The notes under the pieces are model-generated. The model searched no databases. It saw only the letters and a program-made list of their open reading frames with translations, and was not told the DNA's origin. The position numbers were made by a program, and so were the translations under genes. Below, piece after piece: positions 5,847 through 62,950 of a DNA stretch of 64,000 bases (position 1 is the stretch's first letter; each line of letters begins with the position of its first letter). The DNA comes from a virus, in the IMG/VR virus record IMGVR_UViG_3300047562_003246, positions 1-64,000 of that record. One strand, given 5' to 3'.

Positions 5847-5998
5847 ATTTTGAAGTGAACAGCGGGTGAAAACGTTGTGACTACCAGTGGTGAACCCAAT
5901 AGTTGGGGAACTTCTCGTATTAAGCCGATTATCTCGGCCCAATCGTGATGGGAAACACAAAGCATAATCAACGTGACAGCCGGAGAGACGGCATTTAA

Positions 5999-6023
5999 CG
6001 GTCACTTAACACTTGAGGTTTGG
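5999..6023 (+). repeat. CGGTCAC intergenic linker, copy 1
   Basis: A TAA, then CGGTCACTTAACACTTGAGG and the start of the next gene. It is one of four similar stop-to-start linkers in 6.0-6.9 kb. Confidence 0.6.
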
Positions 6024-6025
6024 AA

Positions 6026-6316
6026 ATGGATATTCATGAGCGTTGGGAAGCTGTCACGAAAGGTGGTGACGAGTTTTTGAAGTTCAACAAGGTCGCAAAC
6101 AAGCGAAGCCAGCGACCAGACTTGCACGCATTTTTGCTGCTGGATGAGTTGTTCCCAGGCACTGGCGATATGGTGGCGGCTGCGAGCCACGACGAGATTT
6201 GGTTGGACGTGGAAGACAATCAGGTCGAGACTTTGACCGATGAACAGATTTTAGAGTTGTCTTGGTGCGGCGTGCGTCACGATAGGGACGTAGGCGGTCT
6301 CTGCATGTTCGTTTAA
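6026..6316 (+). CDS. Small acidic unknown protein (96 aa)
   Basis: ATG 6026 has GAGG about eight bases upstream; the TTG at 6020 is less likely. Features are MDIHERWEAVTKGGDEFL and an acidic C-terminal half (DEIWLDVEDNQVETLTDEQ). First gene of the cassette whose members are joined by CGGTCAC linkers. No family recognised. Confidence 0.6.
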   Translation: MDIHERWEAVTKGGDEFLKFNKVANKRSQRPDLHAFLLLDELFPGTGDMVAAASHDEIWLDVEDNQVETLTDEQILELSWCGVRHDRDVGGLCMFV

Positions 6317-11537: not shown

Positions 11538-12257
11538 ATGAAAACCTTATTCTTACTCGGAGCAGGCATCAGCACGGCTGCAGGTATTCCGGACTATACA
11601 AACGTCGAAGTACGTCTAGATATTCAAGACTTGTTGAGATTACGAGTCAAGCGGGTTTGTAAGTGGGCAGTGCAGCATCAATCGATACTTAACGCGGTTG
11701 GTAACGCAAAGCCTACCGAAGCTCACAAAGCTGTTCATAGTTATGTACGACAACAGAGACATCGCGGTATTCCAGCTATGGTTATTACGCAGAATGTCGA
11801 CGGTTTAGATGCGGAGCTATTTGTTGAAAAGGATCAACATGACGAAAAGATTCCCATGATTGCGCAAGCTCACGGTAGTCTTCTTCGAACGCAGACTGGC
11901 TTTTTTGGTTGTCAAACAGTTCGCAGGAACCAGCTTCGTGCTTTTGGCGATAGTCTTGTACCAGCCTATTTACAGACTTATGGGTTTGGGTATCCGGATG
12001 TTGTACTGCTCGGGATGTCTGTGCGATTGCCTGGACAGATCGAACAGCTTGCAAGCATTTTTGATGAATGTTTGTGCGTGGGTACGACGCTGACTATTCA
12101 GTGGACAAACCAATTGGTTGCTGCTTTTAATCAAGCGCAGAAGCCGGTCTACCTGTTCAGTCGTACAATCGACGATATACGGTACCCCACCGATAAACTA
12201 GAATGGGTCGAAGGTGATATTCAATCTACGATCCCAGACTGGCTAGGTGTCAAGTGA
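11538..12257 (+). CDS. Sir2-family NAD-dependent protein (239 aa)
   Basis: GAGISTAAGIPD (residues about 8-19) is the NAD-binding loop, TQNVDGLD (about 84) the Asn/Asp motif, and QAHGS (about 110) carries the catalytic His. Later PDVVLLGMSV and GTTLTIQ match the remaining Sir2 motifs. The zinc-module cysteines are absent. Sir2 enzymes deacylate lysine or consume NAD+. The stop overlaps the GTG of the next gene, tying it to the virion-protein operon. Whether it modifies host proteins, NAD or phage proteins is unknown. Confidence 0.85.
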   Translation: MKTLFLLGAGISTAAGIPDYTNVEVRLDIQDLLRLRVKRVCKWAVQHQSILNAVGNAKPTEAHKAVHSYVRQQRHRGIPAMVITQNVDGLDAELFVEKDQHDEKIPMIAQAHGSLLRTQTGFFGCQTVRRNQLRAFGDSLVPAYLQTYGFGYPDVVLLGMSVRLPGQIEQLASIFDECLCVGTTLTIQWTNQLVAAFNQAQKPVYLFSRTIDDIRYPTDKLEWVEGDIQSTIPDWLGVK

Positions 12258-19629: not shown

Positions 19630-20043
19630 ATGCAGCTTAAGCATACAAAACCTTGCAACCAGTGCCCATGGCGTAAGGATAGTCCACAGGGTTGGCTTGG
19701 TGGTTATCCTCCAGAGATGTACGCAGATGCGGTAGACAATAACGAAGTACCTGCTTGTCACTTACAAGATAAAGGTCCTGACGATCCGAGAACCGCAATG
19801 TGTGCTGGTGCGCTAGCTACGATGTATATGCAGTGTAAAAGCGCATATAACACGCCTGGAGGTGATGACGCAAGAAAAGCAGTCGGACTGAACATCGATT
19901 GCTTTGCTAATGTTCACGAATTCTATAAGTATCACGCTGGCAAAGACTACAAACCAGCGATATTCAGATTACTTTCTGATATGAACAAGCAACAAAGTAA
20001 GCGATCAACTAGGCGACGAAAGAACTTTAAAAAACAAGGCTGA
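19630..20043 (+). CDS. Cysteine-motif protein, DUF6283-like (137 aa), paralogue A
   Basis: PCNQCPWRKDSPQG, then PACHLQDK and MCAGALATM. This C-x2-CPW...CH...CAG order matches the small family annotated as DUF6283, which probably binds a metal. The C-terminal 20 residues are Lys/Arg-rich. Two relatives lie at 31670 and 33328 in this window. Biochemical role unknown. Confidence 0.7.
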   Translation: MQLKHTKPCNQCPWRKDSPQGWLGGYPPEMYADAVDNNEVPACHLQDKGPDDPRTAMCAGALATMYMQCKSAYNTPGGDDARKAVGLNIDCFANVHEFYKYHAGKDYKPAIFRLLSDMNKQQSKRSTRRRKNFKKQG

Positions 20044-29023: not shown

Positions 29024-29363
29024 GTTTGGAGCGACCGAAGAAGTGGTCACTACTAAAAAAACAAGAAGTAAGAGCGGTGACAAAAAACTAGCGTTAAAAG
29101 AGGATTGGAAAACAGTTATCAATGAAGCGCTCGGGATGAACTTCAAAGGTTCTTCAAGATGTTGCCGTAGTGTATTCTTTGTAAGAGAAGACTCTACGAA
29201 GAAAATAAAAACAGCGGTCAGCGAGATGGTTAAGGTTGGTTTACTCGTCGAGTCGCACGTTAATGAAGAGATGCAATACTCGCAGTATAGAATTACCGTT
29301 AAAGCCTGCGATGCGATAGGCTTACCTACGAATCTAAGAGTAAGGGCTGGTGTTTGTCGCTAA
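29004..29363 (+). CDS. Winged-helix-like small protein (119 aa)
   Basis: Basic N-terminus (MAKKKNKFGATEEVV), then a helix-helix-beta pattern, DWKTVINEALGMNF...KIKTAVSEMVKVGLLVESHVN followed by YSQYRITVKA. This resembles winged-helix DNA-binding proteins. Coupled to the Sir2-like gene through a 10-base overlap. Confidence 0.55.
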   Translation: MAKKKNKFGATEEVVTTKKTRSKSGDKKLALKEDWKTVINEALGMNFKGSSRCCRSVFFVREDSTKKIKTAVSEMVKVGLLVESHVNEEMQYSQYRITVKACDAIGLPTNLRVRAGVCR

Positions 29364-30049
29364 CACACAGACAAAAACGTCAGATTATCTTCGATAGCAA
29401 ATTGTTAGTTGTTGTCGGAGACTTGCTGACGGACGAATATTTCCATACATACAACAATGATTCGTTTTTCAGGAACTTCTTTCCTAACAGTAAAAAGCTG
29501 TTTAAGTATTTATCTCACAGACGAAACAACTGGGTTACCAAGGCTGTAAACAAGTTACCTACACTGCGAACAAATAAGACAACGATTTGGTCGCAGAATG
29601 TCGACGGGATGTACGCTCCGGACGGCGATGCTATCTTTAGCGAAGTTTATGGTAATTTCCGCAGGTACAAGTTTTGGTTATCTTCTAGACTTAATTATCT
29701 GGGTTCAAACCAGTTTAAAAAAGGTTGTCTCAGCATTTCTAGGGCTACGAATATATCGCAGCTCTTTTACCGACTGGGTACTATGTATCGCTGGAGGCTT
29801 CCAGATATAGCACTACCGTCGCAGTCTATTAAACTCGACCAGTTTGATCTGACTTTTGCTTGTCAAGAATACGACGCTGTGATGCTGGTTGGCGCTAACG
29901 TAAACGAGAAATGGCTCGATGAACTGCTGTGGAGCTTCACCATCGCACGCAAGCCAATATTGATGTTTATGGACTATGCGTTTGATCTGGACGATGTTAT
30001 ATACTGGAAAAGTAGTGTTTCGACACTTTCTAGATTCATAACAGCTTAG
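29354..30049 (+). CDS. Degenerate Sir2-like protein (231 aa)
   Basis: TTG start overlapping the previous gene. Motif order matches the intact Sir2 at 11538. LLVVVGDLLTDE stands in place of GAGIS..GIPD; TIWSQNVDGMY keeps QNVDG. SEVYGNF has Tyr where the catalytic His should be. RLPDIALPSQSIK and YDAVMLVGANVNEKW match the last motifs. The NAD loop and the catalytic His are altered, so deacylase activity is unlikely. It may be a regulatory or decoy form, or bind NAD without turnover. Confidence 0.6.
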   Translation: MSLTHRQKRQIIFDSKLLVVVGDLLTDEYFHTYNNDSFFRNFFPNSKKLFKYLSHRRNNWVTKAVNKLPTLRTNKTTIWSQNVDGMYAPDGDAIFSEVYGNFRRYKFWLSSRLNYLGSNQFKKGCLSISRATNISQLFYRLGTMYRWRLPDIALPSQSIKLDQFDLTFACQEYDAVMLVGANVNEKWLDELLWSFTIARKPILMFMDYAFDLDDVIYWKSSVSTLSRFITA

Positions 30050-30909: not shown

Positions 30910-31665
30910 ATGAATCAACCTATCGAACCTACCGCAAAACAAACACTCAATGTTGAGCAAAAGCATTTTGAGCTATTTGAGCGATCTATTGCGAAAGTAA
31001 TTCAGGGAGCTGAGTCTTTCGACAAGTACGTCAGCTCGAAAAAAGGCGGCTCCAGCTTTCCAATGGGCGACGACGACGATGAAGAAGGCTACGAGCAAGG
31101 TTACGAAAGCTGGGAGGCAGTCAAGCAAGATGGGAACTTCAACAAGCTTGCGTTCTGCTTACATAACAGCATGCGATTGTTTATCGCGACCAGAGAACTT
31201 GTGCGGCAGGAAGGGTTAGCTGACTTTTCTATCAATCAGCCACAGGTACAAGAAGGGCCTCGCATGATGCCTATGCTTGTTGGGTCGATGCGAGTACCTG
31301 GACAACCTGCAGAAGGACCCGAGCAAGCCGCTGAGCAGTGTAACTGCCCGGTATGCGTAGTTAATCGCCATCGCGCAGCACAACACGGAATGACTCCGTT
31401 TGAAGCGATACCCGAAGCATCTGCGTTTATGGACGATAAAGACCAACCGCCTCAAGTGCACGCAGCTACAAATATGCTGTTTTCTACGGCGAGTTACGCT
31501 TTATCTTTGGTTTCGCAGGAACAACTCGACAAGATTTGGGGTAGGGTTAAAGAGCTGATTTTTGAGCATTCACAGTTGCAGCGAGCACAACTGGAGCCAG
31601 TCGAGCAAACTGCGCAGGATCCTACGCAGATAAAAGCTACGAAGATTTTCACAAAGCTTGCTTAA
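30910..31665 (+). CDS. Acidic multi-segment protein with Cys pair (251 aa)
   Basis: N-terminal helix; an acidic patch near residue 55 (MGDDDDEEGYEQGYESWE); a Pro/Met-rich linker; QCNCPVCVVNRHRA; and a helical end. Dispersed repeat copy 7 encodes AQDPT near the C-terminus. No family recognised. Confidence 0.6.
   Translation: MNQPIEPTAKQTLNVEQKHFELFERSIAKVIQGAESFDKYVSSKKGGSSFPMGDDDDEEGYEQGYESWEAVKQDGNFNKLAFCLHNSMRLFIATRELVRQEGLADFSINQPQVQEGPRMMPMLVGSMRVPGQPAEGPEQAAEQCNCPVCVVNRHRAAQHGMTPFEAIPEASAFMDDKDQPPQVHAATNMLFSTASYALSLVSQEQLDKIWGRVKELIFEHSQLQRAQLEPVEQTAQDPTQIKATKIFTKLA
31612..31625 (+). repeat. Dispersed 14-bp repeat, exact copy 7
   Basis: In frame as Ala-Gln-Asp-Pro-Thr, about 13 codons before the stop of the host gene. 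Confidence 0.95.
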
Positions 31666-31669
31666 TACG

Positions 31670-32056
31670 ATGACATCTAAAAAAATTCGTGTGAGGTATT
31701 CGCCTTGCAGTAGTTGTCCTTTTGTAAAGGACAGGCCGACTGCCGTTAGGTATCTGTCTGCAGATCGCACAGAAGAGATATCTGAAACTTTGCTTAGCGG
31801 CAATGGTTTTACTTGTCATAAAGACAACGATATTGATCTTGGTCGACGTGCTCAGTGTGCTGGAGCGATGCTTATTTTGCGCAAGTTACAGAGACCAAAT
31901 ATCGCGATGCTGCTGCTCAGATTTTTAGGGTTACTAGATTTCGATAAACTAAGAGGTGCCGAATCTGTTTTCGATAATTTCGAACAATGGAAGGAAGCAC
32001 AACAGAAATCTATTGAGAGCTTAAAGCATGATACTAGTGGGCCTGAACGGATTTGA
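31670..32056 (+). CDS. Cysteine-motif protein, DUF6283-like (128 aa), paralogue B
   Basis: PCSSCPFVKDRPTA, FTCHKDND and AQCAGAMLIL keep the C-x2-CP[WF]...CH...CAG order of the genes at 19630 and 33328. The C-terminal half is helical. Start ATG 31670. Overlaps the hydrolase gene by 29 bases. Confidence 0.65.
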   Translation: MTSKKIRVRYSPCSSCPFVKDRPTAVRYLSADRTEEISETLLSGNGFTCHKDNDIDLGRRAQCAGAMLILRKLQRPNIAMLLLRFLGLLDFDKLRGAESVFDNFEQWKEAQQKSIESLKHDTSGPERI

Positions 32057-33327: not shown

Positions 33328-33789
33328 ATGGCAGAAAAACAACACAAGAAACCGTGTCACGATTGTCCATTTACGACTAAAGCTGCACCAGGAGAGACCG
33401 GAGGATCTCATCCAGCTGTATACGTGATGCAAACAATTTTGCCTTACAGAATTCCGTGTCACTGTCGTATTGATTATTCGGATCCAAATTGGAAAAAGAA
33501 CGACAGTACGCCAGAATGCGTCGGGCACGCAATTATGCGAGTAAAGCAGGGCGTAGCCGATAAGATGCCAGAGGCGCTATTACGTATTGAGCCTTACGAA
33601 GGCGATCAAGTGTTTAATAACTTGATTGAAATGTTTTGTTATCACACAGGGAGTACTGAAGACGAGGCTAAGGCTTATCTAGAATTAGCCTTACCTCAAA
33701 TGATTATCGAGCAAACATCATCCGAGTCGTTTCGGATCATTGACCAGAACCTTTTAAATAAACTAGACGAAACAAATGACGAACTCTAA
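33328..33789 (+). CDS. Cysteine-motif protein, DUF6283-like (153 aa), paralogue C
   Basis: PCHDCPFTTKAAPGETG, IPCHCRIDY and PECVGHAIM. The same C-x2-CPF...CH...C-x-G order as paralogues A and B, with an extended helical C-terminus. Coupled to the next gene by ATGA. Confidence 0.65.
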   Translation: MAEKQHKKPCHDCPFTTKAAPGETGGSHPAVYVMQTILPYRIPCHCRIDYSDPNWKKNDSTPECVGHAIMRVKQGVADKMPEALLRIEPYEGDQVFNNLIEMFCYHTGSTEDEAKAYLELALPQMIIEQTSSESFRIIDQNLLNKLDETNDEL

Positions 33790-38784: not shown

Positions 38785-39162
38785 ATGGGTTTCACGACAT
38801 GTAACGGTTATTCTCGCAGAGACTTAATCATACACTTGATGTCTGATAGTCCGCAGGATAAGTACATCGCTATCAACAAGTACACAAGTGGTAACGACTT
38901 ATGGGTCGTCATGCAAAGGCGTGATGCGCAGGATCCTACAAACGCCGATAGATACATCAGGCTGTATAGATTACAGCGAACTAAGGATGGCTGGGGCTAC
39001 AGCGACTATGCAGAAGCAGATTGTCCTTACGTATTTAGCTGTCCGTTGATTTTTCTGGACATTACTTTTCACCAAAACACCGATTGGCGAAAAGGGGTAA
39101 GAGAGTATTGGAAAGCCCGTAAGGAAGCGATGACTACTCGTAGAAAAAGTTCGCCTAGTTGA
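38785..39162 (+). CDS. Conserved phage-type protein (125 aa)
   Basis: AAGGAGAACATT precedes ATG. MGFTTCNGYSRRDLIIHLM, then LWVVMQRRD and CPLIFLDITFHQ. The MG[FW]T...LWxVxQ layout resembles a small phage family of unknown role (DUF6927-like, tentative). Carries repeat copy 8 in frame (AQDPT) in a loop, which suggests the insertion is tolerated. Confidence 0.6.
   Translation: MGFTTCNGYSRRDLIIHLMSDSPQDKYIAINKYTSGNDLWVVMQRRDAQDPTNADRYIRLYRLQRTKDGWGYSDYAEADCPYVFSCPLIFLDITFHQNTDWRKGVREYWKARKEAMTTRRKSSPS
38926..38939 (+). repeat. Dispersed 14-bp repeat, exact copy 8
   Basis: In frame as Ala-Gln-Asp-Pro-Thr within the 38785 gene. Confidence 0.95.
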
Positions 39163-39228
39163 CTGGCTGAGCTTGTCGTGCTTTGATGGTAGCTGTGTGT
39201 TGTTTCTTCTTGGCTTTTGGAGTTTGAA

Positions 39229-39432
39229 ATGATTGCAGTACCAGTTAGCATTTCCGAAATTGTTGGTTTGACATTTGAGCAGGCTAAACAGTGGGCGACT
39301 GAGCACAGTTACAGGGTAGTTCCGTCAAGCATTGACGGAGAAGCGACTGTTCTTACGCAGGAATTCGATCCGACGCGGATACAGGTTGCTTTGGTCGATG
39401 GTAAAATCAAGGAAGTAACCAATATCGGTTAG
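39229..39432 (+). CDS. Potato-inhibitor-I-like protease inhibitor (67 aa)
   Basis: VGLTFEQAKQWATEHSYRV, then ATVLTQEFDPTRIQVALVDG and a final VTNIG. This follows the CI-2/eglin fold: helix, reactive loop (TIVTMEYRxDRVRLFVD in CI-2) and a C-terminal V.xIG. By this alignment the P1 residue would be Gln where CI-2 has Met. Such inhibitors block subtilisin-like serine proteases. Phage inhibitors of this type could protect virion proteins or block host proteases. Start ATG 39229 with TTGGAG upstream. Confidence 0.6.
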   Translation: MIAVPVSISEIVGLTFEQAKQWATEHSYRVVPSSIDGEATVLTQEFDPTRIQVALVDGKIKEVTNIG

Positions 39433-39475
39433 TGCCTATAAAAGTTAGGCATTCCTACGGCGCTGGTGGGCCGAA

Positions 39476-39515
39476 AGAAGGACGAGTTAAGAAATACTTG
39501 TCCTTCTTTTTTTTT
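39476..39515 (+). terminator. Intrinsic terminator with T9 tract
   Basis: AGAAGGACGAGT/ACTTGTCCTTCT (12 bp with one wobble) and T9. It separates the accessory region from the structural module. Confidence 0.85.
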
Positions 39516-60819: not shown

Positions 60820-61028
60820 CAAGCCTTCGAATCGTTAAGCCAGTTCCGAAAAATTCAGCAAGAGAGAGTATTGGTCCGGCCAATACTCTTTCGGTTATTA
60901 CTGTCGATGGTAGTCCTGTTGCGTGTGTTGTAGAAAAACGAGCCGTCGCTTCTGTGCTGACTAAAATTAGTAACACATATAAGCTTGATCCGTCGCGAAT
61001 CAAAGTTACTGAGACTCCGATCATATGA
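60816..61028 (+). CDS. Small unknown protein (70 aa)
   Basis: TSLRIVKPVPKNSARESIG and VACVVEKRAVASVLTKI. Overlaps both neighbours by four bases, directly upstream of the beta-prime-like gene. Unknown. Confidence 0.6.
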   Translation: MTSLRIVKPVPKNSARESIGPANTLSVITVDGSPVACVVEKRAVASVLTKISNTYKLDPSRIKVTETPII

Positions 61029-62950
61029 ACGATCCAACACTTGCGCAGCTACGTTTAGCGAGGATACTCCCAAAGGATTTATATCAACCGGGAGACCCGC
61101 TCAATAAAAAAGAGCAACAAAAGATTCTGACGCAAATTGCCAAGAATAATCCAGACAAGTACAAGCAGGTCGTTGAAGCTTTAAACGAAGTAGGTCTTGA
61201 GGTAGCAAGACTCGACGGTACTTCGTCTATTGGTATCGAAGATATCGCGATGCCAGCAAGAGCTAAAGTTCGTCGCACAAAGATGCGAGAACAAATTGAA
61301 AAGATGCTCGATAGTAGTCGAGACAAGCAACTGCCTAGGGCAGATATTCATCGCAAGATCATGGAAGTACTTGCAAAGAATGTAGCTGACGATGTAGAAG
61401 AGATCTATCAAGACTCTAAAGCAGAGAAAAATCCGCTGGCTATCCAAGTAGATAACGCCGGTCGCGGTAATAAGTCTTCGATTGCTGCAATTCGAGGTGG
61501 AGAGCTTGTTGCTAAAGATTCTTACGGAAAGCTTATTCCTATTTTGCTTGACAGGTCTTATTCGCAGGGCTTAACGCCTATGCAGTATATGGCCGGGCAA
61601 GAGGCTGCACGTATCGGCGTGGTCGATACAAAGCTATCTGTTGCCTCGTCTGGTTATGTTAACAAAACAATGTCACAAGCTGTTCACAGACTTGTTGTCA
61701 GCGCTCTTGATGATGAGTCTGCTGTTGGGCGAGGACTTGCTGTACCTACGGATGATCGTGATAACGACGGAGCGGCATTATCTTTCGATTACGGACCCTA
61801 TAAGCGTAATACGATTATCACACCTAAGATTCGTAAAAATCTTATTGAAATGGGTCATGACGAAATTGTCGTTAGAAGTCCCATCGCATCAGGAGCAAAA
61901 GACGGTGGTGTACTTGCCTGGGATTTAGGCGAAAGAAATTACGGGAGACTTCCTGAACTTGGCGAGTACGCAAATTTAGCTGCGTCAAACTCTATCGGTG
62001 AAGCCGTCACGCAGGCTACGCTAAATTCCAAGCACAATTCGAATGTTTCGATGCGAGATATCGAAGCCCTTGATGATGAAAATAGATTTACTCTAAAAGG
62101 CTTTGAGCTTATCGACAGAGTCATCAATCCGTCTGGTGAGCAAAGAGGTTTTGCAGTTCATGCTGAGTCCGATGGACGGGTTGGTTTAATTAGACCTGCT
62201 CCTCAGGGCGGGCATTATGTCATGATCGGGCTTAAACAGCATTACGTGTTACCAGGGTTTAAGATCAACGTAAAGCCTGGAGAAGAAGTTGAAGCCGGTC
62301 AGCAATTAACTGAAGGAATACCTAATCACGCTGCCGTCACAAAACTTCGAGGTATCGGTGAAGGTCGCCGCGCAGTTGTTGAAGCTATGACTAGGGCTCT
62401 TAAGGAAAACGGACAAAAAGGTTACCGCAGAAATCTGGAGATTCTCGCCAGAGGGTTAGTCGATCGTGTGCGTATGACCGACGAGTATGGCGATTTTATT
62501 CCAGATGATGTTGTTCCGTACCATAGACTTGAAGCGACCTGGAAACCGCGAGAAGACAGTTACGAGCTACAAACAGATCGTGCGATCGGAAAGTTCCTCG
62601 AAAAGCCTGTGCTACACTATAGCATCGGAACACCTATCAAACCTTCGATGGTGAAAACTTTACAAAAGCACGGGATTAAAAGCCTAGTAGTTAACGAAGC
62701 AGCTCCTCCGTTTGAACCCACCGTCGTTAGGGCTGTGGATTTAATGCAAACCGACCCCGACTGGATGACAAGGCAGTTGGGCGGTCACGGACGTAGAAGC
62801 TTCGAAGAAGCTGTCATGCGAGGTCGAGATAGCGATACTTCTGGGACTAGTTACGTTGGTTCTCGTGCAGAATTAGTTTCATTCAATCGTGGCAACTCGA
62901 CAGTAAAACTCGATGAACCAGCCCCAGGCACACCAATATTACCGAGATAG
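61025..62950 (+). CDS. RNA polymerase beta-prime subunit, C-terminal half (641 aa)
   Basis: Landmarks match bacterial RpoC in order. GTSSIGIEDIAMP (about residue 66; RpoC SGVSIGIDDM) is the F-loop. DNAGRGNKSSIAAIRGG (about 142) is the bridge-helix region. GLTPMQYMAGQEAARIGVVD with SSGYVNK (about 180-212) is the trigger loop. LGEYANLAASNSIGEAVTQA (about 312; RpoC GEAVGIIAAQSIGEPGTQ) and a C-terminal domain with PGEEVEAGQQLTEG follow. The NADFDGD catalytic half and the zinc cysteines are absent, so beta-prime is split and the N-terminal half must lie elsewhere. Its place in the virion module raises the chance of a packaged polymerase. Confidence 0.85.
   Translation: MNDPTLAQLRLARILPKDLYQPGDPLNKKEQQKILTQIAKNNPDKYKQVVEALNEVGLEVARLDGTSSIGIEDIAMPARAKVRRTKMREQIEKMLDSSRDKQLPRADIHRKIMEVLAKNVADDVEEIYQDSKAEKNPLAIQVDNAGRGNKSSIAAIRGGELVAKDSYGKLIPILLDRSYSQGLTPMQYMAGQEAARIGVVDTKLSVASSGYVNKTMSQAVHRLVVSALDDESAVGRGLAVPTDDRDNDGAALSFDYGPYKRNTIITPKIRKNLIEMGHDEIVVRSPIASGAKDGGVLAWDLGERNYGRLPELGEYANLAASNSIGEAVTQATLNSKHNSNVSMRDIEALDDENRFTLKGFELIDRVINPSGEQRGFAVHAESDGRVGLIRPAPQGGHYVMIGLKQHYVLPGFKINVKPGEEVEAGQQLTEGIPNHAAVTKLRGIGEGRRAVVEAMTRALKENGQKGYRRNLEILARGLVDRVRMTDEYGDFIPDDVVPYHRLEATWKPREDSYELQTDRAIGKFLEKPVLHYSIGTPIKPSMVKTLQKHGIKSLVVNEAAPPFEPTVVRAVDLMQTDPDWMTRQLGGHGRRSFEEAVMRGRDSDTSGTSYVGSRAELVSFNRGNSTVKLDEPAPGTPILPR

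Follow-up and report, generated by a model that had tools for sequence, protein, structure and literature searches.

P0001, a 67-residue protein encoded in a virus record of 185,237 bases, is probably a serine protease inhibitor, small and cytosolic, that adopts the CI-2 fold and acts by the standard mechanism, a function that we infer from the known family. Bases 1-64000 of that record form the window, the whole 64,000-nucleotide stretch of DNA analysed here. The plant inhibitor CI-2 and the leech inhibitor eglin c are textbook cases. The most fitting name for P0001 is CI-2-fold, I13/I78-like phage inhibitor; it is not a formal member of Pfam family PF00280 (potato inhibitor I), because its score lies under the Pfam cut-off and it lacks the P8' arginine. 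The gene and its surroundings are as follows.

39229..39432, + strand, gene for the CI-2/potato-inhibitor-I-like protein P0001, 67 aa (open reading frame, Pfam, homolog profile, AlphaFold, Foldseek and VIA-align)
39219..39222, + strand, GGAG, ribosome-binding-site-like, six bases 5' of the ATG (from the sequence)
38785..39162, + strand, upstream gene of 125 aa, in the same direction as P0001, with no family match
39473..39510, + strand, intrinsic-terminator-like hairpin ending the unit (-21 kcal/mol, fold z-score -5.2)

The open reading frame that the first-pass annotation reported at 39229-39432 is present, running from an ATG at 39229 to a stop codon at 39430-39432 and translating to MIAVPVSISEIVGLTFEQAKQWATEHSYRVVPSSIDGEATVLTQEFDPTRIQVALVDGKIKEVTNIG, and both the loop quoted there (TVLTQEFDPTRIQV) and the final V-x-x-I-G are found in the protein. 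Translation from an alternative TTG at 39217 would yield 71 aa, but GGAG sits six bases before the ATG. The upstream gene and the P0001 gene possibly belong to one transcription unit. P0001 is cysteine-free and has no apparent signal peptide, and the third-position GC of its gene (0.448) is typical of the record (mean 0.431, sd 0.060).

PF00280 is the only Pfam family matched by P0001 at E-values up to 10 (E 0.0048 across the full library, with residues 10-67 aligned to positions 6-64 of the 64-position profile), with a score of 17.9 bits that falls below the curated gathering score of 24.5; the phage relative L027 scores 25.0 bits against the same family. When eleven natural homologs (ten from phages and one bacterial, with P0001 left out) were made into a profile, it matched P0001 with 34.9 bits and E 1e-8, CI-2 coming second with 17.6 bits; the highest score among 20,000 shuffled versions of P0001 was 10.1 bits. 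Profile-profile comparison of the phage family with the plant/leech family gives a probability of 91.8%. A plant/leech-only profile of eight inhibitors, with the sequences of CI-2 and eglin c confirmed against PDB entries, was weak, placing P0001 12th among 20,000 shuffles, and was set aside as too narrow to decide. PF11720 (I78) gave no match to P0001 by hmmscan, nor at the P0001 site in a genome search, and phmmer of P0001 against PDB sequences returned none. Direct tblastn of P0001 against phages yielded chance-level matches only; the C-termini of Klebsiella and Moraxella phage helicases (E 0.1-5) were rejected as chance, since they align to part of the helicase.

With 22 aligned sequences, AlphaFold gave a model (pLDDT 86.5, pTM 0.69) with helices at residues 8-11 and 16-25, strands at 29-35, 50-56 and 59-66, and a loop at 36-49, which is the CI-2 layout. 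Modelled without homologs, the protein is given a different, weaker fold (pLDDT 76.7, pTM 0.58) with a tight hairpin at the expected loop site, and the CI-2 fold call therefore leans on the homologs. The comparison with CI-2 that the first-pass annotation had proposed turned out in its favour when homologs were included, in a model that has the helix-sheet fold and the exposed loop, with the caution that the single-sequence model folds differently. A CI-2 fold, with a helix on a sheet and a long exposed loop, is accordingly predicted in the alignment-based model only. In a Foldseek search of the PDB with that model, the best 50 matches listed are all eglin c, CI-2 or plant relatives (E 0.0015 and up, TM-scores of ~0.6, probability 1.00 nearly throughout). 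The first 46 VIA-align entries likewise belong to the potato-inhibitor-I family (Z 7.5 to 5.1), CI-2 itself aligning at Z 7.5-6.9 with an rmsd of 2.6-2.9 over ~61 residues and the fungal I78 inhibitor AFUEI (3w0d) at Z 3.9. For a protein so small a Z below 8 is middling, and the strength of this structural match lies in a single family filling the list.

The predicted loop and its key residues map to the following positions.

39334..39375, + strand, predicted exposed reactive loop, residues 36-49 (DGEATVLTQEFDPT), from the alignment-based model and the homolog loop columns
39358..39360, + strand, codon of the predicted P1 residue, Gln44, by the CI-2/eglin register from P2 Thr and P6' Arg
39376..39378, + strand, codon of Arg50, the P6' loop-supporting arginine, invariant in alignments A5 and A6

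Spacing from P2 to P6' equals that of CI-2 (T43-Q44-E45-F46-D47-P48-T49-R50 versus T-M-E-Y-R-I-D-R). The P2 threonine is found in 22/22 rows of A5 and 16/17 rows of A6, the P6' arginine in every row of both, and an acidic P1' in all rows but one, while P1 varies between phages (Q, K, M, R, A, C). Such a pattern would fit an inhibitor loop whose shape is maintained as the residue that sets its specificity changes. The CI-2/eglin layout and family resemblance first proposed for this protein are borne out.

Fold and loop make it likely that P0001 inhibits a serine protease. Like a substrate, loop 36-49 would insert into the cleft at the active site of a protease of the subtilisin or chymotrypsin type, with Gln44 occupying the S1 pocket; Arg50, Glu45 and Thr43 would keep the loop rigid, so that the inhibitor stays bound, as in the standard mechanism. 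P0001 resembles barley CI-2 and leech eglin c (MEROPS I13, PF00280) in predicted fold, size, absence of cysteines, P2-P6' loop length, P2 Thr, P1' acid and P6' Arg. It differs from them in overall sequence (~20-27% identity in structural alignments), at P1 (Gln versus Met/Leu) and at P8' (Gln versus a supporting Arg), and, unlike them, it has no WPELVG motif, is phage-encoded and has no signal peptide. With I78 proteins (PF11720; AFUEI and proteobacterial lipoproteins) it shares a T-x-[DE]-[YF]-x-P-x-R-[IV] loop and a non-Arg P8', whereas the I78 proteins of alignment A5 carry a cysteine pair (an N-terminal Cys and a C-terminal CG) and an export signal, and P0001 has neither. I13 inhibitors have been reviewed as plant proteins with subtilisins among their targets (PMC4189545), and a bacterial I78 candidate has been listed (PMC12620975).

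Relatives in phages were searched for with a consensus-like probe modelled on I78/CI-2-type proteins, which serves as a lead and not as evidence. It matched 16 phage records at E-values up to 1 (best 1e-8), including Mycobacterium phage WXIN, seven Brevundimonas jumbo phages, Stenotrophomonas phage ANB28 and several uncultured phages of 484-735 kb; one more Stenotrophomonas phage relative was found at E 0.07. With the probes used, about 17 phage records out of 50,697 contain relatives, in keeping with the rarity in phages claimed for this protein at the outset, and where they are annotated at all they are called merely hypothetical proteins. Scans of IMG/VR with the single protein and with alignments A1 and A8 found no relatives, and a scan with alignment A9 found L027 again and nothing else. 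A scan of 84,980 species genomes returned 41 loci, which encode either secreted proteins of actinobacteria that carry the domain C-terminally or I78 lipoproteins of proteobacteria; the search pattern allowed only K, M or R at P1, and P1 frequencies in this set are biased by it. Several of the actinobacterial C-terminal versions (L028-L037) lie in secreted proteins, with SRP/FtsY and ATP synthase genes among their neighbours, and those gene neighbours provided no lead.

Our leading guess for the target, held tentatively, is the phage's own cytosolic subtilase, an S8 enzyme of 360 aa encoded outside the window at 68656-69738 of the record (L004 4656-5738), 29 kb from the P0001 gene. It matches the Pfam S8 family at E 6e-43, its S8 motifs are complete (D-T-G, H-G-T-H and G-T-S-M-A-T-P), and it has no apparent signal peptide, a proline-rich tail and a short C-terminal segment. 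The closest PDB sequences, mature subtilisins, align from residue ~29, which leaves no room for an I9 prodomain; lacking that inhibitory prodomain, the enzyme would need another brake. By alignment, the equivalents of subtilisin residues 156 and 166 in its S1 pocket appear to be Asn and Ser, which might, as a weak indication, favour an uncharged polar residue such as Gln at P1. A second inhibitor-bearing phage, LR756508.1 (484 kb), offers a parallel: in it an S8 gene (L013 2406-3485) and an inhibitor gene (5977-6183) lie 2.5 kb apart in the same direction; among the first 25 of 54 neighbour families of phage inhibitor genes, no protease recurs apart from this case. If the two genes were independent, ~0.03 records with both would be expected (16 x 83 / 50,697) and one was observed, an excess that is only suggestive because large genomes contain more of everything. 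The S8 gene is absent from 10 of 11 other inhibitor-bearing phage records, and the inhibitor from all ten S8-bearing phages examined. A broader reading, possible but rather doubtful, is that some large phages carry a matched pair in which a prodomain-less intracellular subtilisin is silenced until a set point of infection by a separately encoded CI-2-type inhibitor, replacing the prodomain in cis. Between the S8 and inhibitor genes of LR756508.1, at L013 3514-4596, lies an open reading frame with a metallopeptidase-like HEAAH motif.

Equally tentative is the reading that P0001 is a genuine CI-2-fold inhibitor directed at a host protease, whether housekeeping, stress-related or an effector of anti-phage defence. 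Most inhibitor-bearing phages have no S8 protease, P1 differs between phages as expected if targets differ between hosts, and a Pfam scan of 90 proteins encoded elsewhere in the record, outside the window, showed S8 as the sole peptidase family; no defence protease is linked to P0001, however, and the phage itself encodes an S8 enzyme of the intracellular type, a class commonly inhibited by the CI-2 fold. Less probably, P0001 has kept the fold, lost inhibition and acts as a binding domain, as might be argued from a P1 Gln, which is unusual as a primary residue, and from departures from the family at P3' (Asp, mostly Arg in homologs) and P8' (Gln52, Asn in most relatives, Arg in CI-2, so that the second supporting Arg is missing). 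Against this reading, the spacing of the loop is kept, as are P2 Thr, the acid at P1' and P6' Arg, while the remaining sequence has diverged to ~12-34% identity. An action after lysis, in which inhibitor set free from the cell protects virions or lysis products against extracellular proteases made by the host or by competitors, would fit the secreted or lipoprotein nature of the bacterial relatives and the largely extracellular known roles of the family, but is improbable given that the phage protein lacks a signal peptide and would be greatly diluted after lysis. That P0001 is not CI-2-like at all and has a PASTA or BLIP/BamE-type fold is very improbable: two phage relatives have weak partial PASTA matches over their first half and the single-sequence model has BLIP and BamE as structural neighbours, but P0001 itself has no Pfam match to PASTA (PF03793), a PASTA-containing PBP2x chain aligns at Z 3.5 over 43 residues versus 7.5 over 61 for CI-2, and the alignment-based CI-2-like model is the more confident. 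Once the alignment-based model was available, the matches that the single-sequence model had given to BLIP/BamE and to HigB-like structures were set aside.

As a serine protease inhibitor, P0001 would have counterparts in T4 Pin, which acts on Lon, and lambda CIII, both phage proteins that restrain a protease, as P0001 is predicted to do. To our knowledge, neither is related to P0001 in sequence or fold. Lambda CIII acts on FtsH (PMC1838920). In the literature searched, no paper joins I78 peptidase inhibitors with phage, and none joins jumbo phage, subtilisin-like protease and protease inhibitor. A cysteine-free, cytosolic, phage-borne branch would extend the CI-2 fold into phage biology and raises the question of which protease a phage needs to restrain. 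A phage subtilisin as target would mean a new way of timing a phage protease, and a host or defence protease would mean a new kind of counter-measure.

Several other genes of the window were noted. An RNA polymerase beta'-like protein is encoded at 61025-62950 (PF04998, E 5e-15); Vibrio phage D69 and Salmonella phage Arash have related proteins that are 23-26% identical. These two phages, the nearest by RNA polymerase, have neither an inhibitor nor an S8 gene, the inhibitor search in them having been run without a positive control, and no relative of the record turned up in IMG/VR when it was scanned with the RNA polymerase and with the subtilase. A Sir2-family protein (PF02146, E 3.5e-10) and a second open reading frame with a Sir2-like WSQNVDG motif are encoded at 11538-12257 and 29354-30049. 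Three small proteins, at 19630-20043, 31658-32056 and 33328-33789, look like paralogs by eye, having in common a C-x-x-C-P motif towards the N-terminus and, further on, CH and C-x-G motifs.
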